Source: a virus. From it: a stretch of DNA of 45,617 bases. Where the stretch lies: positions 1-45,617 of IMG/VR virus record IMGVR_UViG_3300035698_009244; one strand, written 5' to 3'. How positions within the stretch are numbered: the stretch's first letter is position 1; every line of letters begins with the position of its first letter. Position numbers and translations under genes: made by a program. The notes under the pieces are model-generated. The model searched no databases and had not been told where the DNA came from. It saw only the letters and a program-made list of their open reading frames with translations. Of this stretch, positions 18,291 through 38,698 are shown piece by piece.

Positions 18291-21200
18291 TCCACTACGT
18301 AGTGTTCTCAAATGGGGAATGCTTGCAGTTGGTGCTGGTTTAGGCATGCGCGCAGCCTACCGGAATATTCCATCTGTACGTAGAGCTGCTGTAGAAATCG
18401 CTTCTAGCGCTGGCGATGCTTATCGCGCGATGGCTATTAGATCTGCTTCGGTTAACCCAATACGTGCAATGAAGGATGCAGCCGGTAGTCGCTTCTCAAA
18501 TAATACAATTGCAACCTGGCTCGGTGCTTCAAAGAAAGTCTCACCCGTTGCTGAGTCACAAATGCTTCGTGGTGGTTTATTTAGCTCATTATCATCTATT
18601 GATGTAATTCAGCACAGCGGTAATGCTAAACAAGCTCTACGAGCTACCTTAACTCCTAATTTCGGTCCTAAAGTCGCTGAAGATATTGCAATCAGCAGTT
18701 ATAAGAATTTAACTGTAGCAGATATCCTCCAGAGTGCCACTAGAACTAAAGATGATCTTTATAAATATGGCAATCGTTACATTACAGCTGCCGACTACTC
18801 AAATCTAGTTAAGGCAACAAGCTCAGGAGTAATCAGTCCTGACTTCCTTATTGATCGCCATCTGATGCTGCGCCAGCTTGATACTGGACAGACGATTATA
18901 CGTGATGCAAGAATGCTTAATATTCGTAGGCAGGCTACGAAAGCAGCCCGTGGACTTCAGAAGATAAGCTATCTTGGCGCGTCCCCTATGGATCCGTTAA
19001 TGCCTGAGTTATGGGAATCTAAGCTAGTCGGCGAACTATCTGGTCAAATACCAATTGATATCATAGGACGAGGCAAGGTTGTAACTGGTGGGGATAGAGC
19101 CCTTCAGATCGGCAAGGAAGTCTTCCGAGTCGATGGTGGAAGAATGACTCGTGTTGGAACAACGAGGGGAACTATACGTTCCAGTAGACGTATGGTAGCT
19201 GAACGTGCTGGCCAAACTGGAATGGCAGGTAAATTTGTCGGGCCGAATAAGATATATGAGCAAGCTACTTTCGCAGAGAGACAAGCTCTTGATCCAGATC
19301 GATATAAAGGTGTATCAGGCAAGATTAGAAAGTTCTTTGAGAAAGGTAAAGGCGTTGAGGCTGGCGGTGTAAAGTTTGGTGTTGGCGAAGGTTATGATAT
19401 CGGAGCACAATATGCTCAGACTGCTTCCATTGGCAGCTCAGCTGGTGCATTTATTGAACGTCATATGGCTAATAAGATTCCTGTCAACCTAATGACAGGT
19501 GGCACTGGAGCACAGGCATTTGCTAATAAGGGTATTGGAGCAGGCGCTGCTGGTGTCCTTGGTATTACTCCGCCGAAGATGAAAGGCCAGTTATTCTGGG
19601 CTTCTCCTGATCAGCTGAAGAATCTGACTCTTGATCAGATGCAAGATCTAGTTAGAACACAGCGTGGAGCTAGTACTGTTGTAAGAGCAAAACGTGGAAT
19701 AGCCGGTGCTACCGCACATTTCAACGTTGGCGAAGTATCCATGACAACCGGTGAAGCTGCTGGCGCAATGACTCGTAAGCTCCTTACAACACCAATGCGT
19801 ACCTTTGAATGGGCTACCGGACTTGGAGTAAAACCTGGAACTGCCGGTCAAATGGTATGGCGTTTGTTTGCAAAGGGCGTAATTCCGGCCTGGATGGGCT
19901 GGGAAGCTATTAAATATACCGACTATCTGACAGAGCAAATGACTGGTTTCAGTCCTATTAAAGGACTGGCTTATATATATGCTGGTGGACAAACTGCTAG
20001 GCAGGCTGCTCTCAATATGACCGGTGTTTCCGCTGTTTCTGACTCAGTAGATGCTGCTACTGGAGGTTTTTGGTCCTCTCCACTTGGTACTGTCGCAAGA
20101 ACTGGTGCTATTTTTGCAGCTGGTATAGCTCTTGGTAAATCGCCTGCCGCTACACCCGCGATGCGTAAATGGGCACCAATGGTTGGGCTGGGATTGGCGG
20201 CCGCACAACTCACTACAACTCCAGGGAAACCTGCTGGCGAGCTTTGGGAAGAGTATACAGGTAAACGAGACGTACCGGTACGTCGCGGACGCTGGTGGCT
20301 ACTGGGAGCTCAACCATGGCAGGGTGGCGAGATTATGTATTATCGCCCCCACTTTATCAGACAAATTACTACAGATGCTCAGTATGCCCAATATGGTGGC
20401 AAGGAAGACTACTTCAAATATATCTCTCTGCTACCAAACGTACACAATCTATTCGGAGCCAGAAACGTTGCCGATCCTTACGGATGGGAAATGAAGCATT
20501 ATTGGGACAAGCCATATCCTGTTTCTCGCGGTATGTTCTCAGATGTACCTCTCGCCGGTCCAATGATGAATATGACTCTTGGCCGCATTATGAAACCCAG
20601 AATCATGATGCATCAGACTGAGACACAGGAATGGTTGCAAAAGCGTGAATGGCTTGGTGATCCTGGACTTGAAAAGATATCAGCGCAACTTGGTATTGAA
20701 AGTCCCGCTGCTGGTAAACCAATGCCTCATTTTGGGGTAGCACAGGAACTTGGCGTAGCAATGGCTGGGTTTACCGATTATATCGGTATGCCTGGCTTCA
20801 TGATTAATGCTATGAAAGAACAGACGACTGGTACTGCTTCATGGTTCCATGGTGGAGCAGTATGGCAAACTCCAGATTACGAAGTATCATCATCTCGTAC
20901 ATTCTTTGAAATGGATCTTGGCGGTGGGCTTGGCACAACCGAGATGATGCGTCGTATGGTTTATAAAGAACCATTCGATGTTAATTACGTAAACCCGATT
21001 CCCAATCAAATGAAAGCATGGTTGCCTGGCTATAGATCCTCATTCGGTGATACTGGCTGGGTTGACTTCCATCGTGGTGATCCTTATGCGAAGATTCGAC
21101 AAGGTGGTGTTCGAATGCAAGGTCTTGAGGGTATCGAACAAGGGAACCTAAATAAGAAAGAGTCCGCCTTCGATAAATGGGAATTCCTTGGATCAATTGC

Positions 21201-22416
21201 GCCATATTCAATTGCTTCTAAGCACTACGGTAAGATCGTGCAAGGCATGGCTGATAATGGTACTATGACAGATGCTCAGAAACGTCGGTTTGAAGAGATA
21301 GGCACTCGCAAGCCAATGTATTCAAAAGCTACGGGATGGTCGGGACAATTCGGCGAACCAGCTTCAACAGCTGCCAAACTACCAGTTCATATCCCTTATA
21401 TCAGCACTAAATTCCTTGGAGCTCAATCCCCAACACAGCATTACCGTAATATGGTACTTTATGGTTCTGATTTCCATGATTGGAAACATCCATATGAACA
21501 GATGTTTGATCCGTATTTAGCACAGTTATCATCTAGAGATCCAGCCAGCGCAATGCTGGGTGGTTCCATGTTTGGATTAATGGGCAGAACTCCACAGACT
21601 AAAGCTGTGCTTGGGGCAGCTGGGGCTATGTATGGCGGATATCTATCCGTGACTGGTGCTCGTAAGAGCGGTAAAGAAGAACGTCGAGAACAATATGAAG
21701 AATATTTCGACAAACTTCAGTACATGAAATTAGGAAGACTTGAAGAACGAGCTAAAGAAATGGGTCGTGGTGATTTGATTAATAATATTAATCGTATGCA
21801 ACGTTCTACCATGTCTGGTTTAGACTATTCTCTGGATCAAGAGGCATTCATGAAAGCAGCTGCACGTGCATTGCCTAAGACTGATCGACACTATTTAGCA
21901 GAAATTGTTGCCGATAATAGTCTTGGTGTAGATGAATTACCTGCTTATATGCGTCCGATCGTGAAGAAGTTACGTGGTGAAGAAACTGAACATGAAGATC
22001 ATAGAAATAACGATATGATGGTATCAAGCTGGCTTACAGCTAATGGCGGAATTCCAGGTGGAGATTGGCCAGGCTGGGCGCCAGGAGTAAAATTGAGTGA
22101 CATAAAGGCTAAATCAGTAGCTTCAGAAGGTGCTAATCTTCATGATTATGGAGTATTTGAAGCTGATGTTAATATGCGTGCTATGTCAATGCCGGGAGCT
22201 ATTACCCCAATACAGAATGTTCAAATGATTCTTGGCCCAGACCTTTCAGAAATGTCAAGATTAGCGTATACTGGTAAACAGGAGATGGCACGGATGGGCA
22301 TTAAAAATCCATCCGTTAATATAACTCCAGGTTATGGTGGAGTAAATAATAATTGGTCTTTGGATTATGATCGCTCAGATGATGGGCACAAATGGCGTGG
22401 TAGAGGAATCTGGTAA
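18259..22416 (+). CDS. Large tape-measure-region virion protein 1
   Basis: 1385 aa. It starts with a hydrophobic Gly/Ala-rich segment (residues ~15-33, WGMLAVGAGLGMRAAYR), and has a cluster of hydrophobic stretches around residues 535-655 (FAKGVIPAWMGW, GAIFAAGIALG, MVGLGLAAAQL) like the membrane-inserting segments of tape measure proteins. After these lies a distinctive Trp-rich block GRWWLLGAQPWQGGEIMYYR starting at residue 677. The protein is rich in Gly, Ala and Met. It follows the chaperone pair and precedes the baseplate hub, the position of the tape measure protein that sets tail length and is ejected into the host. No peptidase motif is recognised. ATG 18259 overlaps the previous gene by 32 bases. 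Whether this or the next proteins is the true tape measure is undecided. Confidence 0.5.
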   Translation: MSNVDSTTQDNPLRSVLKWGMLAVGAGLGMRAAYRNIPSVRRAAVEIASSAGDAYRAMAIRSASVNPIRAMKDAAGSRFSNNTIATWLGASKKVSPVAESQMLRGGLFSSLSSIDVIQHSGNAKQALRATLTPNFGPKVAEDIAISSYKNLTVADILQSATRTKDDLYKYGNRYITAADYSNLVKATSSGVISPDFLIDRHLMLRQLDTGQTIIRDARMLNIRRQATKAARGLQKISYLGASPMDPLMPELWESKLVGELSGQIPIDIIGRGKVVTGGDRALQIGKEVFRVDGGRMTRVGTTRGTIRSSRRMVAERAGQTGMAGKFVGPNKIYEQATFAERQALDPDRYKGVSGKIRKFFEKGKGVEAGGVKFGVGEGYDIGAQYAQTASIGSSAGAFIERHMANKIPVNLMTGGTGAQAFANKGIGAGAAGVLGITPPKMKGQLFWASPDQLKNLTLDQMQDLVRTQRGASTVVRAKRGIAGATAHFNVGEVSMTTGEAAGAMTRKLLTTPMRTFEWATGLGVKPGTAGQMVWRLFAKGVIPAWMGWEAIKYTDYLTEQMTGFSPIKGLAYIYAGGQTARQAALNMTGVSAVSDSVDAATGGFWSSPLGTVARTGAIFAAGIALGKSPAATPAMRKWAPMVGLGLAAAQLTTTPGKPAGELWEEYTGKRDVPVRRGRWWLLGAQPWQGGEIMYYRPHFIRQITTDAQYAQYGGKEDYFKYISLLPNVHNLFGARNVADPYGWEMKHYWDKPYPVSRGMFSDVPLAGPMMNMTLGRIMKPRIMMHQTETQEWLQKREWLGDPGLEKISAQLGIESPAAGKPMPHFGVAQELGVAMAGFTDYIGMPGFMINAMKEQTTGTASWFHGGAVWQTPDYEVSSSRTFFEMDLGGGLGTTEMMRRMVYKEPFDVNYVNPIPNQMKAWLPGYRSSFGDTGWVDFHRGDPYAKIRQGGVRMQGLEGIEQGNLNKKESAFDKWEFLGSIAPYSIASKHYGKIVQGMADNGTMTDAQKRRFEEIGTRKPMYSKATGWSGQFGEPASTAAKLPVHIPYISTKFLGAQSPTQHYRNMVLYGSDFHDWKHPYEQMFDPYLAQLSSRDPASAMLGGSMFGLMGRTPQTKAVLGAAGAMYGGYLSVTGARKSGKEERREQYEEYFDKLQYMKLGRLEERAKEMGRGDLINNINRMQRSTMSGLDYSLDQEAFMKAAARALPKTDRHYLAEIVADNSLGVDELPAYMRPIVKKLRGEETEHEDHRNNDMMVSSWLTANGGIPGGDWPGWAPGVKLSDIKAKSVASEGANLHDYGVFEADVNMRAMSMPGAITPIQNVQMILGPDLSEMSRLAYTGKQEMARMGIKNPSVNITPGYGGVNNNWSLDYDRSDDGHKWRGRGIW

Positions 22417-25136
22417 TGGCAGACCAGAATAAAAAGAGATCTTTACTTGGTTCACTTGCTACATTTGGCGGATTAGCTGCCGGTGTTGGCGGTCTATACT
22501 ATGCCATCAAGAATCCAATTAGATCAGCAGCTGGAATCGTTCCTACCGCGAGCACAGCTCAACAAGCAGTAGATGTAGCCGCAGCTGCAGCAAGAGTTCC
22601 AAATTATAAAGGACCAGGTATTAAGATTGGTGGTCAGATTAATCCTCGCGAAATGGCTGCAAAGACTGCAGAAGATCTGACAAATATGAAATTCGTAGAA
22701 TTTGCGCCTAATAATATCAAAGAAGAAATTCTTTCTAAGCTAAGTCCTAAATTATCTAAACCAAGACTTGCCCAAGCTATCGGTACTATATTCCCTGAGA
22801 CAAGAGGTACAAACGAAATCTTTGACTGGATACAGAAACAGACTGCATATGGTAGAAACTTTATGACAGTACCTGGTGTTAAAGGAAGCGCTGCTGAAGC
22901 TGCAACATTATCTGGATCAATTATTAATTCATATAGGCATCTTGAGAGTTTAGCATCTAAAGTAGGCGGAGGTGCGCGTATTACTGGTACCGCTGGTATA
23001 GGCGCTGCATTAACTATGTCTGGGCAGGAAGCAATTGCTCTACCTTTAGCATTTGGAAGACGTGCCTATATGGGCGGGCGTCTTATAGAAATGCCAGGAT
23101 ATATTCGTAATGATACTAGTCGCATCATGCATGTAATGGACGCACTAGCTACCGGTGTTGAATCACAAATGAAACCATTTATGACCGCAGCCGAATTTGG
23201 TGGAGTTGTCAAAAATGTAAGAAATAAACTACTCGAAGCTGCTACTCCATCTAACGCACTAATGCTTTCAGCCCAAGCTCCAGAACTTACTGTAGCGGGC
23301 TGGGCGTCAAGACAAAAACTCGTACATATGGGTGCAGCATCAGGAATTAAGAAATTAGGAATTTCTGAAGCTGGTAAAGCTCATGAAGTCATGATGTCAT
23401 CTCTAATGTGGTTGCCTGACGCTATTAAACAAGAGCTTGGTATAGTCGGTACTCCAGGCACTATGGCATACACTAAACAAATTTCCAGTCTTATAGATAC
23501 GACTAAAGGCGCCGCAGTTATGAAAGGTATCTTTCATAGACCATCTGTAAGCCAATCTATGATGTCTGGAACAGCTCTTGATGATCCATTAGCGCAGTCA
23601 GGACGTGTAATGCGTAGTGGGCATTTAATAGATCCTAAGCGTGGTATGGTTGGTACCTCATGGTCAGGTATGAAGAATGGAATCATGGCAAACTTTCCTA
23701 TTGGTCCGAAAGGGCTGAGAGATATATCTAAACTTGGAACTGGGCAAGCTGGCGGTATGCTTTTTGGTACCACAAGCATGGGCTTAGTAATCCAAAATCC
23801 TAAGATGGCAAGACTACTTGGCTTTGATCCTAAGCTGGCTGGTGGTTCATGGATGCTATCATCAGCTCAACGCGATCTTTTGACACATGGTGTTGAAACT
23901 GGTTATCGTTTAAAGATATCAGATCTTCCAAGCATGAATCCCAAGATTAAAAGCGCATTAATGGGACAAGCAGAATTCCTTGCTGGTGGCAAAATAGCAA
24001 CTATGGGTAAGCCATTCGCATCATTTAAAGCTGGTGAAGCATTAGGTATGGGAAGTTATTTCACAGATGTTCTTGAAACTGGAGAAGAAACTATACGTCC
24101 TCGTATTATGAGAACTCGTGGTAAGTTTGATGTAACTAATATCCGTATGGATGCTGGACGCGGAGAGCTAATTCTTCAAGGATATACACATGATCGGACA
24201 AAGAGCCTGACACTTGGTACCGGAGCTCACGCTTCAATAGTTCCTCGCGAGTTTAAATCAACTACTAAGATATCTAAGCTATTGGGATTAAAGCCAACCC
24301 AAGCTGTTCATTTCATTGGCACTATGAGCGATCTCAAAGGTGCCGATCAGATTAACATGTTATTTAATGAGCTAGTCTTCCAAGCATCTGATACTAAACG
24401 AGGTGCATTAACTAACTTTGTAAATAGTAGGCTTGCAGATTCTGGAAAACTTAATCTGAAATTATATAATGAAGCTGTTGGAGAATTCGGATTAACTTCG
24501 ATGTATACACCTCGTGCTGGTGGCAAATTCGACTTAAAGACTACTCTATTGACACCTGATATTTTGAAACAAATGGGATATTCATCTGAAGTAGTTTCTG
24601 CTATTGCAGCCACACCAGAGAAAGGTGTAGAAGCTTTTATAGGTGCTACGCCTCTTATGATCGGCACTGAAGCTACAATGTTTACTGCAAAAGGCGTTCA
24701 TAGTCAAGCGTTTGCCGCGGGTACTTCAATATATCATGAACAACTAAAAATGTTAGAAACTTCTGGTTTAAAGGATCAGTATAAGAATTGGCTTGGAGCT
24801 TTCAAATCAGGGCGTACAGGAGAAGCCTCGACAATCTTAAGACAGATTGGAGAGTCTGAAAAATCTTTAGCTGCAATGGGACAGTTTGGAGAAACGCTAA
24901 GTCGCCAAATGGATGCTCGGACTTCAGGGTTATATTCTAATTATAGCAGATATGATGACTTCATAGGTAGACGTAAAGTTGCTAGTTATATACAACAACC
25001 AGGAGATGTAACTGGCGAAGTCATGGAAGATCTTATTAGATCTCGTAGTCAAGCTGCTACTAATCTTGAACGCTCGCTTAATGGTAGGATAGGCCGTCTT
25101 CGTTCACAAATGAATCAGATAAAGGGAATGATTTAG
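22416..25136 (+). CDS. Large tape-measure-region virion protein 2
   Basis: 906 aa. The N-terminus (residues ~8-28, LLGSLATFGGLAAGVGGLYY, then NPIRSAAG) resembles the N-terminus of the 1385-aa protein (NPLRSVLKWGMLAVGAG...), suggesting related proteins. The rest is Ala/Gly/Lys-rich, largely helical, with repeated short motifs but no recognised domain. The start overlaps the previous stop (TAATG). The 3' end carries an AAAGGGA heptamer in slippery phase, five codons before the stop; a -1 shift there would continue without a stop into the next gene (separate entry). As a tape-measure-region protein it probably lies inside the tail tube. Function is inferred from position and composition. Confidence 0.5.
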   Translation: MADQNKKRSLLGSLATFGGLAAGVGGLYYAIKNPIRSAAGIVPTASTAQQAVDVAAAAARVPNYKGPGIKIGGQINPREMAAKTAEDLTNMKFVEFAPNNIKEEILSKLSPKLSKPRLAQAIGTIFPETRGTNEIFDWIQKQTAYGRNFMTVPGVKGSAAEAATLSGSIINSYRHLESLASKVGGGARITGTAGIGAALTMSGQEAIALPLAFGRRAYMGGRLIEMPGYIRNDTSRIMHVMDALATGVESQMKPFMTAAEFGGVVKNVRNKLLEAATPSNALMLSAQAPELTVAGWASRQKLVHMGAASGIKKLGISEAGKAHEVMMSSLMWLPDAIKQELGIVGTPGTMAYTKQISSLIDTTKGAAVMKGIFHRPSVSQSMMSGTALDDPLAQSGRVMRSGHLIDPKRGMVGTSWSGMKNGIMANFPIGPKGLRDISKLGTGQAGGMLFGTTSMGLVIQNPKMARLLGFDPKLAGGSWMLSSAQRDLLTHGVETGYRLKISDLPSMNPKIKSALMGQAEFLAGGKIATMGKPFASFKAGEALGMGSYFTDVLETGEETIRPRIMRTRGKFDVTNIRMDAGRGELILQGYTHDRTKSLTLGTGAHASIVPREFKSTTKISKLLGLKPTQAVHFIGTMSDLKGADQINMLFNELVFQASDTKRGALTNFVNSRLADSGKLNLKLYNEAVGEFGLTSMYTPRAGGKFDLKTTLLTPDILKQMGYSSEVVSAIAATPEKGVEAFIGATPLMIGTEATMFTAKGVHSQAFAAGTSIYHEQLKMLETSGLKDQYKNWLGAFKSGRTGEASTILRQIGESEKSLAAMGQFGETLSRQMDARTSGLYSNYSRYDDFIGRRKVASYIQQPGDVTGEVMEDLIRSRSQAATNLERSLNGRIGRLRSQMNQIKGMI
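25121..25127 (+). promoter_or_regulatory. Candidate -1 ribosomal frameshift site (AAAGGGA)
   Basis: Read in the 906-aa gene's frame the heptamer divides as A AAG GGA, the X-XXY-YYZ slippery pattern, seven bases before its TAG stop (25134-25136). Slipping back one base gives AAA GGG AAT GAT TTA GGC TGG, which runs in frame and without a stop into the 874-aa gene. No strong stimulatory hairpin or upstream Shine-Dalgarno is visible at the usual distances; an imperfect hairpin lies 42 bases downstream at 25169-25190. A separate start with its own AGGAA site exists for the second gene, so the site is a candidate only. Confidence 0.35.
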
Positions 25137-25153: not shown

Positions 25154-27778
25154 ATGCTTGGTCTTCGTGGAGAGGAATTTGCTCCTATCCATGAGGAACT
25201 GACAAAATTAATGTCTAAGCAAGCTGGAACATCTGGTAAAGAATTTGGAACATTCTTTGGCCAATTTGGATTTGGTGCTGGCGCTGGTTTTGAAAAGACG
25301 ATTAATGTGAGAGCACTGAGAACAATGGCGGGTGCTGAATTACCTGTCATTAAACTTGGAAGTGTCGAAGGTAGAGCAATAGGTGATATTGCTGCGCAAC
25401 TTCATGAAGTATTAAAGCAACCAGCTGCAGAAGTTTCGACAGAAATGTCCCAACTATTAAGTGGTAAATTTGGTGAGACTTTGAGAGCTGCTGGCTTCAA
25501 AGAAGGCGCTCCTTTAGGTGGCTTCTTACTCGAAACAGGTGGTACAATTGATATTGCTATGAAACATGGTGATTGGAAAACTGGATCACTCAAAACAACT
25601 AGTATGATTAAAGCTGGTGGAGCGCAACCAATTTATATACCAGGCATTAATGAAATGGTTGCTGAATCTCAACGTATTACAACTGGATCCTATCCAACGC
25701 CTGTATTCAAAGCGAAGATTGCTTTATTAGCCGAAATGAAAGATTGGCCGAGTCGTACTGGTGCTGGCGATGCATATAAATTTATAGCAGAGAGACGTTT
25801 GGGAAGATTAGGCACCCGTATGACAGATCTTATGGACGCTGCTACTGGTACTATAACTAAGAAAGGCGGCTTTCGAGAAATAGCAGGTCAGGTATTACGA
25901 CCAGATGCTTCATTGTATAGCCAATTAATTGAGCATAACCAACTTTCATTTACCACAAGATTAAATGCACTTGATGATGCTGGCAGAATGGCTGTATCTC
26001 AAATGTATGAGACTGGTAGCAAAGTAGCAGCAATTGAGCGTATGAATCGTGAACTAGCTGGTACTGTCTTTATCTCAAGACTTGAAGCTGAGAAGATGCC
26101 TGCTGCGTTCTTTAAACGAATAGGCGAAGGCAAAGGGTATGCATTATCAGCTCGCTGGCCAACTGTGTCTCCTGGATCTATTGGTGTTACGAGACTAGCT
26201 ATTGCTCCTGTAGAAGAATTAGGAGAGAAGGGCGTTGCTGCTATGAGCGCTGGCATGCTGGCGCATCATGCTGCTGATACTGACCTAGACAAGATGGGGG
26301 GTTGGGTATTTAATATTGGAAATGAGAAGTTCCAATCAGCATTAGATAGAGCATATAATCGTACTTTAGCCCAATCTCAAATGACTCAAGATTTCATTGT
26401 CAGCCGTATTCAAGATATGGATATTAATGATTACTCAACTCAATTCTTAAGCGATGCTAGAAGTGCTGAAGCAGCAAAACATGGAGTTACTTGGGATAAG
26501 CTTCTGAAGACTCATAAGGATCCGAAAGAAGTACTTCGCCAAGCTATATATTCTCGTGTTGCTACACAAACAATGACTGGCGTCACTACTAATAGAATGT
26601 ATCAACAGCTTGAAGTTCTTGGTTCTATGATGGGCAAAGTTCCAGCTAGTGGTAAGCAGGCTATTACGGCAGCGGCCGATGTAATAGGACTCTCGATTAT
26701 TGAATCCACAATTAAAGTAGCTAAGAAAGCATCAATGGGCACAGGGCCATTAGCTGCTGAGGAAATTATGGAATGGATGAGGACTAAAAACACAGCCGCA
26801 ATTTCTACTAAGCTAAGAGATATAGCCGTTTCAGCTAACATTGAAGGTCTAGATGTAAGCTCTCTAGTGTCTGAATTTGGCGGATCAAAAGTCCAACAAT
26901 TACAGAATCTTCGAAAGCAAATGCAACGAGGCACTGGTATAGAGGGCTTTGCGTGGGGCGCTGTAGCAAGCACAGCTGTAGGAGAAGGAAAGAAGTATCG
27001 TAATTGGATTGAAGCTGCTCAGGGTGCGCTACAAGGAGCGTCAGCTGATGAGTTTGTAGACGTTTCAAGGATTCTAGTCGAGTCTCACAAGACATCGCAG
27101 GATCTATTCCGTCAGTCTGAGAAAGCCGTTAATCTTATAAGACAATCTAGTCTAGTAGCTGGTTCTGGAGATGTGAAAGATCTGTTAACATCTCTTACAA
27201 GAGGCTCTGAAGAAAGTTCTCCAATTGCTAAACAGATGCTTGAGTCTATCATGGGTGATCTACCTATAGAAGATTATCAGATCATTGGATCTGAAATGTC
27301 TTCGTTGACTGGTAGAATGGGTAAGGCAGCAGCTAAAACCGGATTAATGGATGATGCGTCTAAGCTGCTTAATAGGTTTGCTGGCAGTCAATTTGGAAGT
27401 AAAGTTACCAAAAGATTACAATCAATGGGTGGTAGAACGATGGCGGCGGGAGCAGCTGGTGCTGTTGGAGCCTATGCACTAAGCAGGTTATTTGGTAGTA
27501 GTCCACCAGCTCCTCCACAAACACCCCAAGATCAAAATTATCCTGGCAAGGATGCTACTACTGGTGATAGACCAGTTTACATGAGAGATGAACGCGGGTA
27601 TAGTAAATCACCAAGGCCATCTGGCTATCAGACCAATGTAGGTGGTACGATTCAGAATCGAGAAACGTTCAGTACATTAGCAGGACGCTCGAATATGACC
27701 ATTCAGGATAACTCAATGAGTGATACGCAATTTAGATACGCAATGGGTAAAGCAAATACAAGTAGCTTTGGATACTAA
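25154..27778 (+). CDS. Large tape-measure-region virion protein 3
   Basis: 874 aa if initiated at ATG 25154 (AGGAA 5-6 bases upstream). It may instead, or also, be the C-terminal part of a ~1790-aa fusion with the previous gene by -1 frameshifting. The first residues (LGLRGEEFAPIHEELTKLM) look like the middle of a helix rather than a natural N-terminus. The body is helical, rich in Ala, Lys and Met. Residues ~761-782 form a hydrophobic Ala/Gly segment (RTMAAGAAGAVGAYALSRLF), followed by a Pro-rich linker and a Ser/Asn/Thr-rich tail. A C-terminal hydrophobic helix and flexible tail would suit a protein that contacts the baseplate hub encoded next, 2 bases downstream. No enzyme motif seen. Confidence 0.5.
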   Translation: MLGLRGEEFAPIHEELTKLMSKQAGTSGKEFGTFFGQFGFGAGAGFEKTINVRALRTMAGAELPVIKLGSVEGRAIGDIAAQLHEVLKQPAAEVSTEMSQLLSGKFGETLRAAGFKEGAPLGGFLLETGGTIDIAMKHGDWKTGSLKTTSMIKAGGAQPIYIPGINEMVAESQRITTGSYPTPVFKAKIALLAEMKDWPSRTGAGDAYKFIAERRLGRLGTRMTDLMDAATGTITKKGGFREIAGQVLRPDASLYSQLIEHNQLSFTTRLNALDDAGRMAVSQMYETGSKVAAIERMNRELAGTVFISRLEAEKMPAAFFKRIGEGKGYALSARWPTVSPGSIGVTRLAIAPVEELGEKGVAAMSAGMLAHHAADTDLDKMGGWVFNIGNEKFQSALDRAYNRTLAQSQMTQDFIVSRIQDMDINDYSTQFLSDARSAEAAKHGVTWDKLLKTHKDPKEVLRQAIYSRVATQTMTGVTTNRMYQQLEVLGSMMGKVPASGKQAITAAADVIGLSIIESTIKVAKKASMGTGPLAAEEIMEWMRTKNTAAISTKLRDIAVSANIEGLDVSSLVSEFGGSKVQQLQNLRKQMQRGTGIEGFAWGAVASTAVGEGKKYRNWIEAAQGALQGASADEFVDVSRILVESHKTSQDLFRQSEKAVNLIRQSSLVAGSGDVKDLLTSLTRGSEESSPIAKQMLESIMGDLPIEDYQIIGSEMSSLTGRMGKAAAKTGLMDDASKLLNRFAGSQFGSKVTKRLQSMGGRTMAAGAAGAVGAYALSRLFGSSPPAPPQTPQDQNYPGKDATTGDRPVYMRDERGYSKSPRPSGYQTNVGGTIQNRETFSTLAGRSNMTIQDNSMSDTQFRYAMGKANTSSFGY

Positions 27779-27780
27779 AC

Positions 27781-30700
27781 ATGCCAAATATAAAGATTGG
27801 ACATATTGATCTTAGCATTGATCCACAGCAGCTCAATATTACTACGACAAGTAATAATGCTTCTGCCGTAGGTTTACGATCTAATCATGCTCAAGCTGTT
27901 CCAACTGGCTATAGTGATTTTAGTGCTGTGCTAAATATCATCTTCCCAAACTTTGAAGATATTAATCAGAAATTACGGCCCATCATTGCGCTAGCAAAAG
28001 CTCTCCCATTCATTCCGATTAGATCTGAAGAGATAGCTGATGCTCTTGTAATTGGATCTGAACTATTACAAAAAAACGATCAGACACTTAAAGAATATAC
28101 ACCTGATGGCTATGCTGATGTTGTTAAGATTACATTCATAATATGGGCTGAAATAATCTATAAATATTATGTAATACCATCTGTTAAGAACGCAATTCAA
28201 GAACACATAGCGCCAAATAAAGATCCAATTGAGACATTACGGAAAGCAGTTGAAGAACGATATCATAATGATTTTTTGCCAATGGAAAGGCTAGGCCGAG
28301 CATCAACTAGTCCTGCCTCTATGATTGCTCGCGATATATCTAATAGGAAATGGGACTGGAATTACATTGCATATGCTGGGGAAGGTGCAATCAATACAAG
28401 GGTGTCTTATTCTAGAGAAGAAGTTTATGAATTAGTAAATGGTTCAAAACTAATTCCTGGAAAGACTACTGATATTGATATGGATCTTACTCCTCGTTGG
28501 ACATTTACGGGTATAATACAAAACCGATCTCTTGTGTATGACGGCGACACAATTCGCGTAACACCAACTGGTTCCGGTAGCTTTAATGCTACTCGCTATA
28601 CAAACTCAACTGATATTTCTGTAAGATTAGCTGGATTTGATGCATTTGAAACTGTGCCTCCAGATGGTAAAGCCCCACCAAGAGTTGATAAAGGATTAGA
28701 TATTTATCAATTTCGTCGTGGCCAGGAAACACATGGTACGACTCATGAGAAAACTGGATATAGAGATTTTGGTGTCGAATGTAAGGAGTCTGTTAGAAAT
28801 CTTATATTCGGAACTGGTAATTCTCCAACCCAAGTAAGAATTGATGTCTTTGACATTGATGATTATAAACGTGTTGTCGCTAATGTAACAGTTCTCGAAG
28901 GAATAAATTCTGGCACATCTATCAACCATGAGGTATTAAAACTCGGACTAGCAATACCTTACGTCGTGCAAGGAACCGGTGTAACAGATAGTACTTATTT
29001 GAAAGCTGCATCCTATGCCGCCGATAACAGTATAGGTTTATGGAACAATGATCTATGGCGAGGATATTGGTTCCGTATCTCTAAACGTACTGTTAGAGGC
29101 GATTATGCTAAAGCTTTAGATGATTCAATTAGCGATTTAGAGCCTAAGAATACCGTTGGGTTTATACTTCCATCTGACTACAGATCATACGGTAGTAATG
29201 TCAAAAGATTTATATTAGGACAGAGACTATACTCTGATCCTTCAGAACCTATTTCGGCTGCTGTACCAGTAGCTAGAAATACTGGACATGCTATTCCAGG
29301 TGAAGATCCAGATGAATTTGATTTTCAAACTCCAGGTAATACTTATGATTTTGATGGTGTGGAAGCTTTAACTGGTGATGTAGATGATAACCCTATCCTT
29401 AAAACAAGAGTTAAGAACTATTACTGGGATTTCATACCTGGTTTTAAACCAAAGAGATATTTGCCATCTGAACTAAAAGCTTTACTAGAACAACAAGCTA
29501 AGATTGTAGGCTATGAAGCAGATTTTAGAACTGCTGGTCCATTACATATATTTCAATCAATGGCAGCTGATCTATATGATCGCGCTCACTTTGATAGTAG
29601 CCTAGAAATCCAGCCAAGCTATAAAGTAACAAGTAAACATTTCCCTGGTGACTATGTGCCAATGTGTTTCGAGGCTATTCAGCTTAGAAGCGTCCAAAAT
29701 TATCCATATGCTGTGCAAGCAACATTTAAATTTGTCTTCTTTAATCCAGCCCCATACATACCAGCATTTGGATTCATTGGTTCCAAATTCGATAAGGAAT
29801 CTGGAATTGTAGTTGCCGATCGTAACAAGCTGGAAATCGACCTATCTCAATGTGTTTCCTTCTTAGATTACCTTCAAACTGGCTATATGACTGATAGCTT
29901 CTCGAATAGAGTTGAAGGAAGATACATTGCACCCTATACAGAGCAAGACGATATATACTTTGAATATAACGTACCGCGTATGACAGTAGAAGCTCAAAGT
30001 GATCTTGATGAAAACGATAGAGCATTAAATCGTTCGTTAAGAAGAGGTATTGGATTTGAGAAACACTTAGCAATTATTACACCTCGTAAGTCTGTGTCAG
30101 ATGGAGAAGCTAGTAATTATCAATTAGTTATGAACGATGTATTATTAGAAGCTGTAGCTGTAAATTATATGAACTTTATTCCTCGTATACCAATAGAAGG
30201 TGTCGAATTTCCAACAGCTCAATTTACTGGTAGAGGTCAAGGTAGTCTACAATTAGTTCTTAGAACATCTAATCGACAGGCTATACGTTCTTTATATCAT
30301 ATGCGCATGTTATCTCAAGAAGCTTCTAGAATGGCTGATAGCTCAGACATTCATAATTCAGTTATTAAGATTACTCATCCATTTGTTAACCTAACTGGGA
30401 TTAATACATTTATTGTTAATAATATACAAGAAGATAATGATCCTGAAGCTCCCGGCCAAATGGTCATAACAATTGATCTGGTAGAATCAGCTCCACGAGA
30501 ATCTATCAATGAAGAACTAGCAATTGTTCATGATGAACAAACAGATAATAATGTTGATGATCGAATTATAGATGTTATTATTGATGAACTGCTTCTAGGG
30601 GCACCAGACGCTCGTCGTAGAGCACGTGATTTATTAATTGGTGATGTTAAGGGTGGCAATGTTAACATACATGGCAATGGAGCTACTCGTGAAGGTATGC

Positions 30701-33700
30701 GTACTGTATATCGTAATTCTACCGAACGATTCTGGTCAGATGAAGATATTAGCAGATATACTACGATACAACAGAAAAGGGTTGCCGCTGAAGCTATCGG
30801 ACAGGATCTTGCAGATCTGAGTCTTAATAGTTATTATAGATCTGATTATCTCCTTCCATCCAAATCTCTGCTTTATGGTCTCATACCATTTATAGTCTGT
30901 GATGGAGATCCATTACGGCCCCGTAGTAGTTCATGTGATCCTACAAGTCCTAAATTTACAAGAATGAATGAGCTACTTGAAGCACTTGCTTACAGAAGAA
31001 AAAATGCGAATGATCTTATAAAGAATATTGTTGATGAATTTGTTAATATTACTTCTCATGATTCTGAAGATGCTGAGAAAGCAGTTCGTAATTGGTTAAC
31101 AGCTTTATTTGAAACAGAGTTACCATCTCGAATGTTATCTAATACCACCACTCATGAGATCTATGCACAAAATTTGAGTTATACGGGAGCAGTTTCAAAA
31201 TCTAGAATAGTATCTGCTGGTATCTATCTAGTTGGAGCTACCGGTACAATAGTAGCTGGTGACAGAATCTATAGATTAATCGCTAGATCTCATGATGAAT
31301 TATATGAAAAAGATGCTAAGTATAATCCTTTAACTGGTGCAACTACTAATGAGGTTGTACTAATGATACCAGATCCGAAACTTACATCTTTCTCTCCTCC
31401 AGGAGATGGTATGGATTGGATGGAAATATTCTATCAATCATTTACAAATCCAACATTTAAGGAAACATGTAACAGCATACAACAGGATTATCATCATGCT
31501 TACATCTCTAATAAGCGTAGAATAGATACTAAATTTAGAGAAGTTATAAATGAAGATAATAAAATAGAAACATTACATCCTTTCTGGGTACATAATAGCT
31601 GGATTACACTTAGTAGCGCTGTTACGTATTTTGACAGGATGGTGCTCAAACTTTACAATGAGGTAGAGCATTATAAATCTCCTGATATTAGACATGTTCT
31701 AAAATATTTATTCAAAGTATGTCTGAAATTTGATTCATACCGTACTTTCTTTTATGGTGCAATAACACGATGGCTACCATATCTTGCAGATAGGATAGAT
31801 GGAAAACTGTTCAGAGATAACGAGAATAACAATTATCCCGATATAGAACTCCCAACATACATTGATATTTTTGGACAGACACATGTCTATGATCGTAATG
31901 AAAGAATGGAGTTGTATGCTCTTGTACGTAAATTCTCAGATACTATTAGTCAAAATAGTAAAGCAAGTGTTTACTCGCCACCTCAAAGTATCAGGACACA
32001 GTATGCTAATACTAATGCTAATGGTACAACAATTATGGAATCTGTCAGATTTCATGATCCTAGGAAATTTATTGCAAACGTTATAAATATATGTGGTTTT
32101 AGAACTGATGCTTTAGATGCTACAGATATTTATGATCCAGAACAAATATTTATAGATGGTACACAAATGTCCAACTTTTTGGATTGTTTAGGCTATCAAG
32201 GCATGTCTGATACTAAAGCTTTGGAACGCCATGAAACATTATCATCTCGTCCAAACTATGTCATGCCTCAAGCAAGAATTCAAATTGAAATGTTATGGAC
32301 AAGAATTATTGAGAAGATGAAACAGATTAACAATGCTTATCATAAACAAATTAAAGTGCCCGATAATATGTTACCAACATATGAAGATCTTGGGATAAGA
32401 GGTCCGCATGCTTTCAATAGAAAAGCAAAAGCACGTATCGAAAGTGATAAGCTTGAACCTGGTTGGATGTATTATGCTCCAGAATTAAATATATGGAGCA
32501 ATGCTAAAGAAATGATAAAAGATTCAGAAACCCTAGTAAGTGATATTTGGAAAACTGGCCCAGAAGATAGTGGACAACAGATACATGAAAGCCCTATTCG
32601 TATTGGTCATGATATATCGACTGATTCAAGAAACAATGAATGGGTTGCATTGAGAGCTAAAACTACTAGTATTAATGATATAGGGTCACAAGATAGCCAA
32701 GCTAAACTTGATAGAAATTCAGAACTAGAGCCACATACGGCAGGTGGATTAGTAGGTAAAAAAATCAATGCTGTTGGTGTCGAACGTGATATAGAAAAAC
32801 GATTTGCTGAGAAGATAGGTATAAGAGACGCTAAAGAAGGTGGCTCTCATATAGCTAGTTCTGAAATAGATCTTGATCCTAAGTTTAAATCGAAAGAACC
32901 AGATGATACTTCTACAGTTCGGCTTGTGCCTCAAGGTATGGCATCTTCGCCAAAATATGCTAATGCTCGTTTTGGCACACGTGATGAACAACATAAGATA
33001 ATGAAACGTTCTATAGAAGGTAAACCAAAATATCCTTATAATATGAGGTTTGCATACCCAGTTGCAGCGATCTACTTTGTTGAAGAAGATAAAGCTAAAT
33101 GGGGTTTCTTTGACGATTCTTATAGATATGATTCTATAATAAGTATTGAAGTTATACGCGATAAACAAATTACAGACTTAGCTATTATTAGACTTACTAA
33201 TATGACTGGTACATTATCTAATAAAGTTAACCAAGATAGACAAAAAACTGCTAACGGCATTATATATAAGACAGAAGATGTGAATCGTGTCTCCGCTTGG
33301 GGAGATAATACAGATTCAGATCAAAGAGAAGGTCGAAAAGGTGATTTTAATGACAAGGATGAAAATGAGTTACTCTCATTTAAGATTAAGCAAGGTACTC
33401 GTATTGTCATTAAGATTGGTTACTCAACTAAAGGCGCAGATTTGCCGGTTGTATTTACAGGTCAGGTAGCAGAGGTATCTGCTGGTCCGATTATTACTAT
33501 CGTAGCCCAAGCTTATGATTATCAATTATCTGAACCTGCATATGAGAAATGGGGTAAAGCAAAACATTCCTTCCCAGAAATAATTTGTGATATATTAGCT
33601 AAGGTTAATTACTTCGGTGGCTATAAATTCTATCGTGATCGCTTAAAAGCTCAGACTGTAAATCGTGGAACTAATAGAGCTGACACAGATAAGCTATCAG

Positions 33701-36234
33701 CAAGAAAATGGCTTGAAACATCACAAGGAGATAACTTATATGTCGATCATACTGGCTATTGGGGAAGCTGGCTCTGGAGATTCCTAGGAGATGATTGGCT
33801 ATGTGCTGGTTCTATGCTTGAGAATCTATACACGATGCCAAGGTATAAACCACATGATATAATGATGGTACTACCATATGACGAACGCGCAACTCTATAT
33901 TTTGGACCACCAGATGGGGCATATATAAACACAGGTAAATCAAAGAGTGAATTATTAATTTGGGCTAATAGGCAAGAAGCATATAACGAGTTACGATCAT
34001 CTGGTTTATATCAGATATTCGATGGTGCATTAAAGACATCATTTGAAAAAGATCGTAACCAAGATATCTTATTATCTAAACAGACTGCAGAATCTAGTAA
34101 GAGCGATCGAGGTGTTCCCGAACAGCAACAAGTTATATCTAAGAAAGAAAAGGGATCTCTTTATGCATTCCCATCTCGTAATGATGTTCTACCTATTACT
34201 GCCACAAATTTTGATGGATCATGCTTAATTATAAATAATGACTATCATAGTGAACCATTTTTGGCAGAGGCTAAGTTGAAAGAATTCTATGCTCTTGATG
34301 AAGCCCCTACTTCAAATTATAAAGAAAGACTTACACTAGCTAACTTATATCCTATACAGATTCAAAACATTATAAAGAATATTGAAGAAATACCAAACGA
34401 TGTCATAGCAGCTTTATTTAATGACTTAGTACTCTATACTGGCAAGCGCCATAATGATGATCCAGATGATGCGAACGATACTGCTGGTTGGTATGTTGAT
34501 GAAATCTTAACATCAAATAAAAAGGAGGGTTGTAAGACTTTTAATCTTATTTCAACCTCATATAAGATTGACGAAGTAAAGATAAAAGAAGGCTGGCTTC
34601 ATGATTCAATTAAGGTAGGCGCAAAATATACGGTAAGCGATATTGCAAGTAATATTACAGAAGGTAATGTACAAATAGTAGCTGCGACTAATCTTATCGA
34701 GAGCGCTACCGCTCTAGCAATGGAATTAAGTGGTGCAGGATTAGATGATAATGAATTTGATGATTCTGAGATTTGGGTAGATGATAAATCGTTTAGACAA
34801 GTAAGCAATCCTGGAGCTATTATTAAAGAGTATCTTACACTTGTTATAAAAGCAATATATGATATTAATTCTGGCCAAGTTAAGAATACTCAAGGTGGAA
34901 GATATCCTTTAAAGCAGTCTCCAGTAGCACTAGAAGTATATAAAAGAAATTACAAATTTGGATTTATGTCAACATCTATTGTCATTGAAATATCTGACGA
35001 AGATGTCATTAATGATGATTATACATATCTACCAGGTCAAATATCTCTACAGAGATTTGCTCTTATAAGTGGTGGCGATCATAACTACGCCTTGTGGAAT
35101 TTTATGATAGGTGGGCTGATACCTTATCTTGATCGACTACCTTCTTACATAGCCAATAATCCAGATAAACCTATATCTTATATTGCTAATGCATTGAAAG
35201 CTTCGAAGACTAACAATCTACCTCCGAATATGCTACCCACAAGAGATTACCACTTAGTACAAAGTGGCGTTAATATGATCTCAAATAGAATTGTTGCTTC
35301 AAAATCTCATATGGGTAATATTGCTGTTGTCGAATCACCAGGTGGTACCCCATCTATCGAAAAGAAGGATAATGGTAATAGTGTAAAGATGCCAAAAGCA
35401 AATTATATGCATCGTGCAAGTGTAACCCATGAAGATGAATTAATCTACCCACTCAGCAAATATTTTTATGATATGAATGCTTATCATAATGGTGAGGCAT
35501 GGCAAGTAGCAATGAGCTGTCTTGGCGAAGCTTTACGAGAAATGTATCAGGGACAATTAGTAATCCTTGGCAAGCCTGACGTAAAACCCTTTGACATCGT
35601 TTCTTTGTTTGATAATAAAAATCTTATGAAAGGAAGTTTTGAAGTCAAACGTGTTGTACATCACTTTAGCCATCAAACAGGATATATTACAACAATCAAC
35701 CCGCATATGATTGTCCACGTAAATCGTGATACGGACTGGTGGAAATCAGTTGGAATGTCTGCACTCATGGTTGGCGTTGCTGTTACAGCAGCCGTTGCTT
35801 CTATTGCAACAGGCGGAGTTGGCGGTATAGTGATTGGCGCAGCTTTAGTAGGAGCAACTGCTGGATTAGCGAATTTAGCAGATCTTCCAACTGCCTCTAT
35901 TCTTGGTCTTCAAATTCCTTGGATTAGTGGCCAGGCTAAGATCGGGCCAGCTCGACATAACCCTGTACGTATCTCTCCTTTACAGCATAAGGGACTTCCT
36001 TACATAGTAGGGCTTGAAGGATGGCAACGTTACGCATATAATGGAGAAGAAGGAGCAATTGAAGGCGTCAGCGAAACTGTTGCTCGTAAGCTAACAGCAA
36101 TTCCAGAAGGAATCGAAGCAGCCAATGAGAATATTGCTAATTATTGGAATGCTTTTAGACACACAACTCAGTATCAGATGGATACTTACAAGAACGGAGA
36201 CTTTTTTGGAAATGGTGCTTTGAAACGTGATTAA
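27781..36234 (+). CDS. Giant multidomain baseplate hub-like protein with embedded nuclease-like domain
   Basis: 2817 aa. The N-terminal ~110 residues (IDLSIDPQQLNI, then RPIIALAKALPFIPIRSEE) look like a tail structural domain. Residues ~240-425 form a staphylococcal-nuclease-like domain (separate entry). A strand-rich region around residues 620-900 follows, with CFEAIQLRSVQNYPYAVQA and LQLVLRTSNRQAIRSLYHMR. After a long helical middle, residues ~1756-1930 read as a tail hub: RFAYPVAAIYFVEEDKAKWG, SIISIEVIRDKQITDLAIIR, then FKIKQGTRIVIKIGY and a VVFTGQVAEVSAGP strand pair ending AQAYDYQL, the pattern of gp27/gpD-type hub proteins. Residues ~2600-2650 (KPFDIVSLFDNKNLMKGSFE) are a second hub-like barrel. 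A Gly/Ala/Val-rich hydrophobic segment spans ~2661-2702. It lies between the tape-measure-region and gp25 genes, the hub position. At this length it probably combines several proteins that are separate in other phages. Confidence 0.6.
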   Translation: MPNIKIGHIDLSIDPQQLNITTTSNNASAVGLRSNHAQAVPTGYSDFSAVLNIIFPNFEDINQKLRPIIALAKALPFIPIRSEEIADALVIGSELLQKNDQTLKEYTPDGYADVVKITFIIWAEIIYKYYVIPSVKNAIQEHIAPNKDPIETLRKAVEERYHNDFLPMERLGRASTSPASMIARDISNRKWDWNYIAYAGEGAINTRVSYSREEVYELVNGSKLIPGKTTDIDMDLTPRWTFTGIIQNRSLVYDGDTIRVTPTGSGSFNATRYTNSTDISVRLAGFDAFETVPPDGKAPPRVDKGLDIYQFRRGQETHGTTHEKTGYRDFGVECKESVRNLIFGTGNSPTQVRIDVFDIDDYKRVVANVTVLEGINSGTSINHEVLKLGLAIPYVVQGTGVTDSTYLKAASYAADNSIGLWNNDLWRGYWFRISKRTVRGDYAKALDDSISDLEPKNTVGFILPSDYRSYGSNVKRFILGQRLYSDPSEPISAAVPVARNTGHAIPGEDPDEFDFQTPGNTYDFDGVEALTGDVDDNPILKTRVKNYYWDFIPGFKPKRYLPSELKALLEQQAKIVGYEADFRTAGPLHIFQSMAADLYDRAHFDSSLEIQPSYKVTSKHFPGDYVPMCFEAIQLRSVQNYPYAVQATFKFVFFNPAPYIPAFGFIGSKFDKESGIVVADRNKLEIDLSQCVSFLDYLQTGYMTDSFSNRVEGRYIAPYTEQDDIYFEYNVPRMTVEAQSDLDENDRALNRSLRRGIGFEKHLAIITPRKSVSDGEASNYQLVMNDVLLEAVAVNYMNFIPRIPIEGVEFPTAQFTGRGQGSLQLVLRTSNRQAIRSLYHMRMLSQEASRMADSSDIHNSVIKITHPFVNLTGINTFIVNNIQEDNDPEAPGQMVITIDLVESAPRESINEELAIVHDEQTDNNVDDRIIDVIIDELLLGAPDARRRARDLLIGDVKGGNVNIHGNGATREGMRTVYRNSTERFWSDEDISRYTTIQQKRVAAEAIGQDLADLSLNSYYRSDYLLPSKSLLYGLIPFIVCDGDPLRPRSSSCDPTSPKFTRMNELLEALAYRRKNANDLIKNIVDEFVNITSHDSEDAEKAVRNWLTALFETELPSRMLSNTTTHEIYAQNLSYTGAVSKSRIVSAGIYLVGATGTIVAGDRIYRLIARSHDELYEKDAKYNPLTGATTNEVVLMIPDPKLTSFSPPGDGMDWMEIFYQSFTNPTFKETCNSIQQDYHHAYISNKRRIDTKFREVINEDNKIETLHPFWVHNSWITLSSAVTYFDRMVLKLYNEVEHYKSPDIRHVLKYLFKVCLKFDSYRTFFYGAITRWLPYLADRIDGKLFRDNENNNYPDIELPTYIDIFGQTHVYDRNERMELYALVRKFSDTISQNSKASVYSPPQSIRTQYANTNANGTTIMESVRFHDPRKFIANVINICGFRTDALDATDIYDPEQIFIDGTQMSNFLDCLGYQGMSDTKALERHETLSSRPNYVMPQARIQIEMLWTRIIEKMKQINNAYHKQIKVPDNMLPTYEDLGIRGPHAFNRKAKARIESDKLEPGWMYYAPELNIWSNAKEMIKDSETLVSDIWKTGPEDSGQQIHESPIRIGHDISTDSRNNEWVALRAKTTSINDIGSQDSQAKLDRNSELEPHTAGGLVGKKINAVGVERDIEKRFAEKIGIRDAKEGGSHIASSEIDLDPKFKSKEPDDTSTVRLVPQGMASSPKYANARFGTRDEQHKIMKRSIEGKPKYPYNMRFAYPVAAIYFVEEDKAKWGFFDDSYRYDSIISIEVIRDKQITDLAIIRLTNMTGTLSNKVNQDRQKTANGIIYKTEDVNRVSAWGDNTDSDQREGRKGDFNDKDENELLSFKIKQGTRIVIKIGYSTKGADLPVVFTGQVAEVSAGPIITIVAQAYDYQLSEPAYEKWGKAKHSFPEIICDILAKVNYFGGYKFYRDRLKAQTVNRGTNRADTDKLSARKWLETSQGDNLYVDHTGYWGSWLWRFLGDDWLCAGSMLENLYTMPRYKPHDIMMVLPYDERATLYFGPPDGAYINTGKSKSELLIWANRQEAYNELRSSGLYQIFDGALKTSFEKDRNQDILLSKQTAESSKSDRGVPEQQQVISKKEKGSLYAFPSRNDVLPITATNFDGSCLIINNDYHSEPFLAEAKLKEFYALDEAPTSNYKERLTLANLYPIQIQNIIKNIEEIPNDVIAALFNDLVLYTGKRHNDDPDDANDTAGWYVDEILTSNKKEGCKTFNLISTSYKIDEVKIKEGWLHDSIKVGAKYTVSDIASNITEGNVQIVAATNLIESATALAMELSGAGLDDNEFDDSEIWVDDKSFRQVSNPGAIIKEYLTLVIKAIYDINSGQVKNTQGGRYPLKQSPVALEVYKRNYKFGFMSTSIVIEISDEDVINDDYTYLPGQISLQRFALISGGDHNYALWNFMIGGLIPYLDRLPSYIANNPDKPISYIANALKASKTNNLPPNMLPTRDYHLVQSGVNMISNRIVASKSHMGNIAVVESPGGTPSIEKKDNGNSVKMPKANYMHRASVTHEDELIYPLSKYFYDMNAYHNGEAWQVAMSCLGEALREMYQGQLVILGKPDVKPFDIVSLFDNKNLMKGSFEVKRVVHHFSHQTGYITTINPHMIVHVNRDTDWWKSVGMSALMVGVAVTAAVASIATGGVGGIVIGAALVGATAGLANLADLPTASILGLQIPWISGQAKIGPARHNPVRISPLQHKGLPYIVGLEGWQRYAYNGEEGAIEGVSETVARKLTAIPEGIEAANENIANYWNAFRHTTQYQMDTYKNGDFFGNGALKRD
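28498..29055 (+). other. Staphylococcal nuclease (SNase/TNase)-like domain inside the hub protein
   Basis: In the 2817-aa protein, residues ~240-425 contain SNase landmarks in order. YDGDTIRV (Asp254, Asp256) corresponds to the Ca-binding DGDT of the family. VRLAGFDAFET (Arg282, Asp287, Glu290) has the same Arg-to-Glu spacing of 8 as Arg35/Glu43 of staphylococcal nuclease. DDYKRVVANV (Arg364) corresponds to the YGR arginine (Arg87). A helix INHEVLKLGLAIPYV and a closing helix ending GLW (419-421) complete the fold. About 30 extra residues lie between Glu290 and Arg364 relative to the classical enzyme. All key catalytic residues appear kept. Activity itself is inference. Confidence 0.8.
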
Positions 36235-37094: not shown

Positions 37095-37532
37095 ATGCTG
37101 TTTACTAGGCTTGACTTTGCTATTGATGAGAATGGAAATCTCTCCACTATTGATGGGGATATAGCTAGATTCTCTTCTGTTGAAAGTGTTCAGAAGGCTA
37201 TTGAATGGCGTCTTAAGACTACAAAAGATGAATGGTATGTCAATCCATACATCGTTGCTGGCGTACTGGATTTTGTAGGCCGAAAGAATGATCGCGATAC
37301 TGGCGAATTAATGAGGACAAGAATTGAAACAGCTATCTGTTCTGATAACTTTGTGCCAAGAAACAATCTGATAGCTGATGTCGTCCCAATCAGTCGCGAG
37401 GAAGTGCAGATTATTATCATCGTTAAAGACTTCTATGCTCCTGATTTGAGCGAACAGATAGATCTGAAACTTACATATGAGTTCAGCTATCAAGAAGGAT
37501 TAATAACTTCTTTGACCGGAGGCACGCGCTGA
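37095..37532 (+). CDS. Baseplate wedge protein, gp25/W-like
   Basis: 145 aa, close to the usual ~130-140 aa of this family. It has the typical layout of an opening strand (FTRLDFAIDENGNLSTIDGD), the SVESVQKAIEWRLKTTKDEW helix, and a second part RTRIETAICSDNFVPR then EVQIIIIVKDF, as in GPW/gp25 baseplate proteins (T4 gp25, P2 W). This protein forms the inner wedge core that starts sheath assembly. It overlaps the J-like gene by one base (TGATG), as these two genes commonly sit side by side. Confidence 0.82.
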   Translation: MLFTRLDFAIDENGNLSTIDGDIARFSSVESVQKAIEWRLKTTKDEWYVNPYIVAGVLDFVGRKNDRDTGELMRTRIETAICSDNFVPRNNLIADVVPISREEVQIIIIVKDFYAPDLSEQIDLKLTYEFSYQEGLITSLTGGTR

Positions 37533-38698
37533 TGGCTAATATAGAACTCCTTGAGTTTGAGAATGCTGATGCTGTACGTAGAAGAATGCTGCAGCGAGCT
37601 ATATCAGCGAATCTTCCTGGTGTCTCTAATGGACAAGTGCTTCGCAATGTGACGGAACTATTTGCTGATGAGTGTCAGGAAGACCATAATCGTATTCAAT
37701 TTGCAATGATTAATAGCACGCCTTCATTGGCAACTGGTCCATATCTAGATTTGATTGGTGAGTCAAATTTTGGGCTACCTAGAAATGGGGCTACATATCC
37801 GTCAGCCGCAATTGCTGATAAGAATATGTTATTCTATGTGCAGTCGGGTCAACTGACTGACTATCTTCCAACAGCAAATAATAATCGAAAGTACATCCCT
37901 TATAATACAGCCGTCAGTGATAGCCGCGGAAATAGCTATCATCTTACTAATGATGTATATGTAAATATCGGTGAAACACAGGTTTATGTTCCTATTGAAT
38001 CTTCGATTCCTGGACGCGCAAGAAATGTACCAGCTAACGCTCTTATAAATCATAGCTTAGATCAACGTATCAAAGCTACAAATCGATATGATATAAGCAA
38101 TGGTACTAATGTTGAAACTGACGAGAACTATCGCTTCAGAATTATGCAAGCTCATCTTGCTTCGCAAAGTGGGAATAGGGCTGCTATAAATCTCCAAGTT
38201 GCAAGTATTGGAGGTATTAGCCAGTTCTTTATTCAAGAGAATTTCAATGGGCCTGGAACAGTTGAAGTACTCATTATTCCGATTGGTAACAGATTGTCTC
38301 CAGCAATCAAAGAACAAGTCAAAGCATCTGTACAAATTGCGAGTCCTGCAGCGTCGATTATTACGGTACGTGAACCAAATTATGTTGACTACGATATTGC
38401 TCTTAAGATAGTTCGTAGAAATTCTCTAGATGGAGCTACTTCTCTTGTTCGCAGAAGCGCTACTGATGCTGTGTTTAAATTCATGAATAGTATTTCTGTT
38501 GGCGGAAGAATTGATACGATTAATATGATTGCAGGTTTAAGAAATAGTCTATCAAGATTCGGAGTTGCAGACATTACATTTACCTGTTTCTTATTGAATC
38601 AACAAGCCGTACGTCCTGGAGTGATAGCATTGGCGAGAAGAGATCTTCTTGTTCCAACGCCTTACGATTCGGAACCCATTAAGGTTGCTGTTGCATGA
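37532..38698 (+). CDS. Baseplate J-like wedge protein
   Basis: 388 aa, the normal length for baseplate J/T4 gp6-type wedge proteins. Features: an N-terminal helical part (GPYLDLIGESNFGLPRNGA) with the typical dl-gGe-FGl-R opening; strand-rich middle with PIESSIPGRARNVPANAL matching the G--gNvpa--- pattern of the family; TDENYRFRIMQAHLASQSGN, which fits the E-D-x-yR-ri------- helix; and a C-terminal GPGTVEVLIIP strand then KEQVKASVQIASPAAS and YDIALKIV strands. It dimerises around the hub and couples baseplate change to sheath contraction. Its stop overlaps the next gene start (ATGA). Confidence 0.85.
   Translation: MANIELLEFENADAVRRRMLQRAISANLPGVSNGQVLRNVTELFADECQEDHNRIQFAMINSTPSLATGPYLDLIGESNFGLPRNGATYPSAAIADKNMLFYVQSGQLTDYLPTANNNRKYIPYNTAVSDSRGNSYHLTNDVYVNIGETQVYVPIESSIPGRARNVPANALINHSLDQRIKATNRYDISNGTNVETDENYRFRIMQAHLASQSGNRAAINLQVASIGGISQFFIQENFNGPGTVEVLIIPIGNRLSPAIKEQVKASVQIASPAASIITVREPNYVDYDIALKIVRRNSLDGATSLVRRSATDAVFKFMNSISVGGRIDTINMIAGLRNSLSRFGVADITFTCFLLNQQAVRPGVIALARRDLLVPTPYDSEPIKVAVA

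Follow-up and report, generated by a model that had tools for sequence, protein, structure and literature searches.

Enzymes that act on peptidoglycan and on surface sugars are known from the tips of phage tails. A domain of another type, related to staphylococcal nuclease (SNase), has been described there as well. In Hardies et al. 2007 (PMC2147016), the hub of phage 0305phi8-36 is placed in the T4 gp27 family, and the hub of prophage BtI1 is reported to bear an SNase-like domain for a reason that was 'not obvious'; intragenomic transfer from a stand-alone SNase was suggested in 2007. Our search of open-licence papers found no functional study of a hub SNase.

The 45.6-kb stretch of DNA studied here (hereafter the window) is a fragment from a virus record, with a contractile-tail module and large structural ORFs, one of which encodes a hub protein of this kind. 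The hub and the tail genes that frame it are the following.

27781 to 36234, plus strand: giant baseplate hub protein, 2817 aa (phrog_20474, phrog_8809, blastp to phage hubs)
32980 to 33513, plus strand: first part of the conserved hub core, aa 1734-1911 (hmmsearch E 1.3e-17)
35236 to 35853, plus strand: second part of the conserved hub core, aa 2486-2691 (hmmsearch E 5.7e-31)
12881 to 14335, plus strand: tail sheath protein, upstream, contractile tail context (phrog_16991 E 2e-51)
at 37095: gp25-like wedge, downstream of the hub
37532 to 38698, plus strand: Baseplate_J wedge protein, downstream context (Pfam E 1.1e-25)

That the 2817-aa ORF is the giant baseplate hub of a jumbo myovirus family is well supported by homology. 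It matches phrog_20474 (E 8.8e-50) and phrog_8809 (E 4e-13), two families that also match the hubs of the cultured phages KLEB27-3, MTATph1 and ME3, and blastp leads from the ORF to these same three hubs. The annotation of ME3 in turn cites homology to the 0305phi8-36 hub, and the gp27 assignment rests on PMC2147016. The gene order is the one expected of giant hubs, with the sheath upstream and wedge J downstream. When the hub-core profile was compared with solved structures, no solved relative of the core was found by sequence. The label of phrog_20474 is 'endolysin', yet the family covers giant hubs, and hubs of the MTATph1 CDS0032 type are hence annotated as endolysins.

A single close relative was found, the IMG/VR locus L002, whose 2738-aa hub has an SNase domain in the same place and is 39% identical; neither the full-length window hub nor its C-terminal part, used as scan queries, gave anything new past it. 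The two loci differ just upstream of the hub, where the window ORFs at 22416-25136 (906 aa) and 25154-27778 (874 aa) correspond to the first and the second half of one 1588-aa ORF of L002 (4514-9280), reflecting either a gene split or a fusion.

The initial annotation had read an apparently intact SNase domain at 28498-29055, that is, aa 240-425 of the hub ORF, and had named its catalytic residues. Both readings hold, with the residues at the positions given and in register with those of SNase.

28480 to 29058, plus strand: SNase domain (PF00565), aa 234-426 (Pfam, hub-SNase profile, AlphaFold2, Foldseek)
28540 to 28551, plus strand: DGDT, aa 254-257, equivalent to SNase D19-T22 and including the Ca ligand D21
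28624 to 28626, plus strand: Arg282, equivalent to SNase R35, invariant in the A8 alignment (register from the profile-PDB match)
28639 to 28641, plus strand: Asp287, equivalent to the SNase Ca ligand D40 (D/N/E/Q among relatives)
28648 to 28650, plus strand: Glu290, equivalent to SNase E43, invariant in A8
28870 to 28872, plus strand: Arg364, equivalent to SNase R87, invariant in A8

The presence of an SNase domain in the window hub is confirmed by several lines of evidence. Pfam detects it in the hub ORF with E 2.9e-8 and a score of 34.6 bits, the cut-off being 21, and a record search gives E 1.5e-11. The Pfam match covers aa 320-423 only, because the loop past E290 is some 29 residues longer; the boundaries at aa 234-426 were set by a hub-SNase profile in which the window sequence is itself included. 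Taken singly, the window sequence reaches just E 0.11 against SNases in the PDB, in an alignment that extends to the end of the domain (YVVQG..GLWNND in the window, YVYKG..NIWSED in SNase), while the profile of ten hub domains matches solved staphylococcal nucleases with E 2.8e-8 and brings DGDT, R35, D40, E43 and YGR87 into register. D21, R35, D40, E43 and R87 are thus all present in the window, as D256, R282, D287, E290 and R364; departures from SNase include T41 to Ala, P42 to Phe and K84 to Asp. Structure prediction had been proposed as a check, and the AlphaFold2 model of the domain shows the order strand-strand-strand-helix-strand-strand-helix-helix, which is the SNase topology, with pLDDT 75-92 across most of the core and a pTM of 0.69; the low mean pLDDT (64) is due to the long loop past E290 and to both ends, which are poorly predicted. 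Foldseek places the model with SNase (E ~1e-5, probability 1.00, TM 0.57-0.64 normalised by target length), and nearly all of its best 50 PDB matches are staphylococcal nuclease, so that the hub domain is, as modeled, of the SNase fold. The Pfam score, the profile-to-PDB match and Foldseek together rule out a chance similarity or an over-read short motif.

In its position the domain of the window hub differs from that of most relatives: it appears to interrupt another, conserved domain, which we call hub domain 1.

27790 to 28062, plus strand: first half of hub domain 1, aa 4-94 (hmmsearch E 5.4e-7; hhalign 98% probability)
29668 to 29790, plus strand: second half of hub domain 1, aa 630-670, a weak match (hhalign E 1.1e-4, 56%; hmmsearch E 0.013)

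In both the window and L002, where the second half is also weak when taken alone (E 0.03), domain 1 looks split and the SNase domain falls within an insertion of ~535 aa. On these profile alignments it is likely that the SNase domain is nested inside domain 1 in the window; a structure prediction of aa 1-690 came out at pLDDT 29. Most relatives have the SNase domain N-terminal to domain 1, and the ME3 copy occupies aa ~1108-1241, adjoining an M23 peptidase, which makes three locations across the hub family. These differing positions suggest that SNase was repeatedly recruited, or else relocated, within the family, two histories between which a tree cannot decide because the hub SNase domains are too short and too diverged. 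Two of the records with a hub SNase, those of L020 and L045, also encode stand-alone SNases of 124 and 134 aa (L064 and L065). These two are each other's nearest match, neither of them being closest to its own genome's hub domain, and no recent intragenomic transfer from a stand-alone SNase is seen in these two records.

The initial annotation had regarded nuclease domains as not usual in hubs and had proposed a search for the same fusion in other phages. That search shows the domain to be common in this family, whose first case was in print in 2007 (PMC2147016). Extension through KLEB27-3 and MTATph1 gave 47 IMG/VR loci, and a scan of genome contigs gave one locus, L014, an SNase-bearing hub of jumbo-phage type encoded on a 44.5-kb contig (DUTM01000145.1) of a Mycobacteriales MAG bin, hence a phage or prophage contig inside a bacterial bin. 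Together with the window, L002 and the three cultured phages these make up 38 hub clusters. An SNase domain with D21, R35, E43 and R87 all kept occurs in 18 of the 38 (21 hubs), a figure that describes the collection and is not a frequency, as the hub searches were seeded partly with SNase-bearing hubs; catalytic positions were assigned by alignment in the short domains and by eye in those with long loops (L029, L033, L034 and L037-L042). About half of the collected clusters have no intact SNase domain.

The contrast between kept and eroded active sites is our best evidence for selection on the window copy as an enzyme. The ten hub SNase domains of the A8 alignment are 17-40% identical to that of the window and share only nine invariant columns. 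Seven of these are the equivalents of D19, G20, D21, T22, R35, E43 and R87, the other two being the Ile that follows DGDT and a Gly lying between R35 and D40. D21, R35, E43 and R87 do not vary among domains that are mostly 15-30% identical. In A8 the chance that all four named catalytic columns should be invariant is ~4e-5, counted over ungapped columns and with relatedness ignored. Position D40 varies (D, N, E or Q), so that calcium affinity may differ between relatives, several of which have N, E or Q. Natural cases of active-site loss exist in the same family: the hubs L032, L035, L039 and L044 retain eroded N-terminal SNase-like remnants without the full catalytic set. A large virion protein encoded ~10-12 kb upstream of the hub also has an SNase-like segment, which lacks DGDT, E43 and R87 in the nine relatives examined (L055-L063, 1.86-2.2 kaa, from the records of L022, L023, L034, L036, L039, L041, L048, L050 and L053); in the window homologue of this protein (18259-22416) and in that of L002 the degenerate segment is seemingly absent. 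The losses in the four hubs and in the upstream protein indicate that drift is possible where the site is unconstrained, and the retention of catalytic residues elsewhere supports selection for nuclease activity.

The same eroded copies can be read in another way, namely that the domain serves as an OB-fold scaffold, or binds nucleic acid and guides DNA at its exit, with catalysis being irrelevant. Phage hubs and spikes ordinarily contain OB-folds, and the degenerate domains in the four hubs and in the 1.9-2.2 kaa virion protein that several relatives encode upstream would suit such a role. Yet binding alone is insufficient to account for the whole catalytic set being kept at very low identity in the window and 17 other clusters; the retained residues argue against a binding-only role for the window copy, and we regard this explanation as unlikely.

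We propose instead that the window hub has a catalytically competent SNase-type nuclease built into it at the tail tip. This would be a Ca-dependent phosphodiesterase working outside the host cytoplasm, during attachment and penetration, and cutting DNA or RNA at or around the cell surface that would otherwise trap or block the tail tip; extracellular DNA, biofilm matrix and lysis debris are candidate substrates. Calcium is millimolar outside the host cytoplasm and low in the cytosol, and SNase needs it. Control of the hub nuclease by calcium is plausible from the SNase mechanism, and the low cytosolic level would turn the enzyme off, sparing the phage's own injected genome. Counting against the proposal are the changes at T41, P42 and K84, the longer loop past E290, the replacement of D40 in several relatives and the absence of an intact SNase domain from about half of the collected clusters. 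An active nuclease that cuts surface nucleic acid with calcium as its switch is the likeliest of the readings considered, and we find the case for it evenly balanced.

A retained active site is also what would be seen if the nuclease part of the hub were carried into the cell on the tail tip and, at an early stage of infection, attacked the DNA or RNA of the host or defence nucleic acids, and the hub does sit at the envelope-crossing tip, in a gp27-like position according to Hardies et al. 2007 (PMC2147016). However, the ORF bears no sign of domain release, the domain precedes a hub domain or is enclosed by one instead of forming an easily cleaved free terminus, and the enzyme would stand where the phage's own DNA emerges. 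SNase chemistry also requires calcium, which the cytosol lacks. We consider such delivery distinctly improbable.

The hosts known for the hub family include Gram-positive (Bacillus, Moorella) as well as Gram-negative (Acinetobacter) bacteria, in keeping with a substrate that both types share, for example extracellular DNA. Since SNase is a phosphodiesterase and envelope polymers are the usual targets of tail-tip enzymes, the substrate could instead be a different surface polymer, for instance teichoic acid, or phage DNA during assembly. But ME3 has the domain too, although wall teichoic acid is absent from Acinetobacter, its host, and we know of no SNase that acts on a substrate of that type; this reading has very little to recommend it.

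Under the surface-nuclease proposal, the hub SNase would belong to a set of exchangeable enzymes at the tail tip that also includes the peptidoglycan hydrolases of other family hubs; the ME3 hub pairs SNase with an M23 peptidase in one protein. More tentatively, and with the balance of our judgment still against it, an active nuclease gated by calcium could have been incorporated into the tail tips of jumbo myoviruses several times over, each time independently, as a general tool for penetration or decontamination. If true, nucleases would form a tail-tip enzyme class of their own, next to peptidoglycan hydrolases and polysaccharide depolymerases. A conserved tail-tip nuclease would imply that nucleic acid itself is a barrier or a target at infection. 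For the puzzle posed in 2007 there are now many natural cases, in some of which the active site is intact and in others broken; as cultured phages such as KLEB27-3 and MTATph1 are among them, it is directly testable.

Among known systems, the Staphylococcus aureus thermonuclease (for example PDB 1snc) shares with the window domain the fold and the register of DGDT, R35, D40, E43, R87 and Y113; that enzyme is stand-alone and secreted, whereas the domain studied here forms part of a virion protein, has a longer loop and carries T41A and P42F. The Bacillus phage vB_BauM_KLEB27-3 has a homologous hub with SNase (gp035, OM634661; DGDT167, R196, E204, R269) that matches the endonuclease family phrog_452 (E 2e-8), but its SNase is N-terminal to domain 1, its D40 equivalent is Gln and the hub is ~22-27% identical. 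The Acinetobacter phage vB_AbaM_ME3 shares the homologous hub core (gp37, KU935715), and its SNase (Pfam E 4.7e-14) has the D/R/E/R residues; it differs in having that domain mid-protein (DGDT at aa 1108), directly before the M23 peptidase. The BtI1 hub RBTH_07687, of the 0305phi8-36 lineage, likewise has an SNase-related domain on a giant gp27-like hub, described as N-terminal in PMC2147016, whereas that of the window is probably nested in domain 1, after aa 94. The type of fusion has therefore been known since BtI1; what is new is the probable nested position, the breadth of its occurrence and the conservation of the active site.
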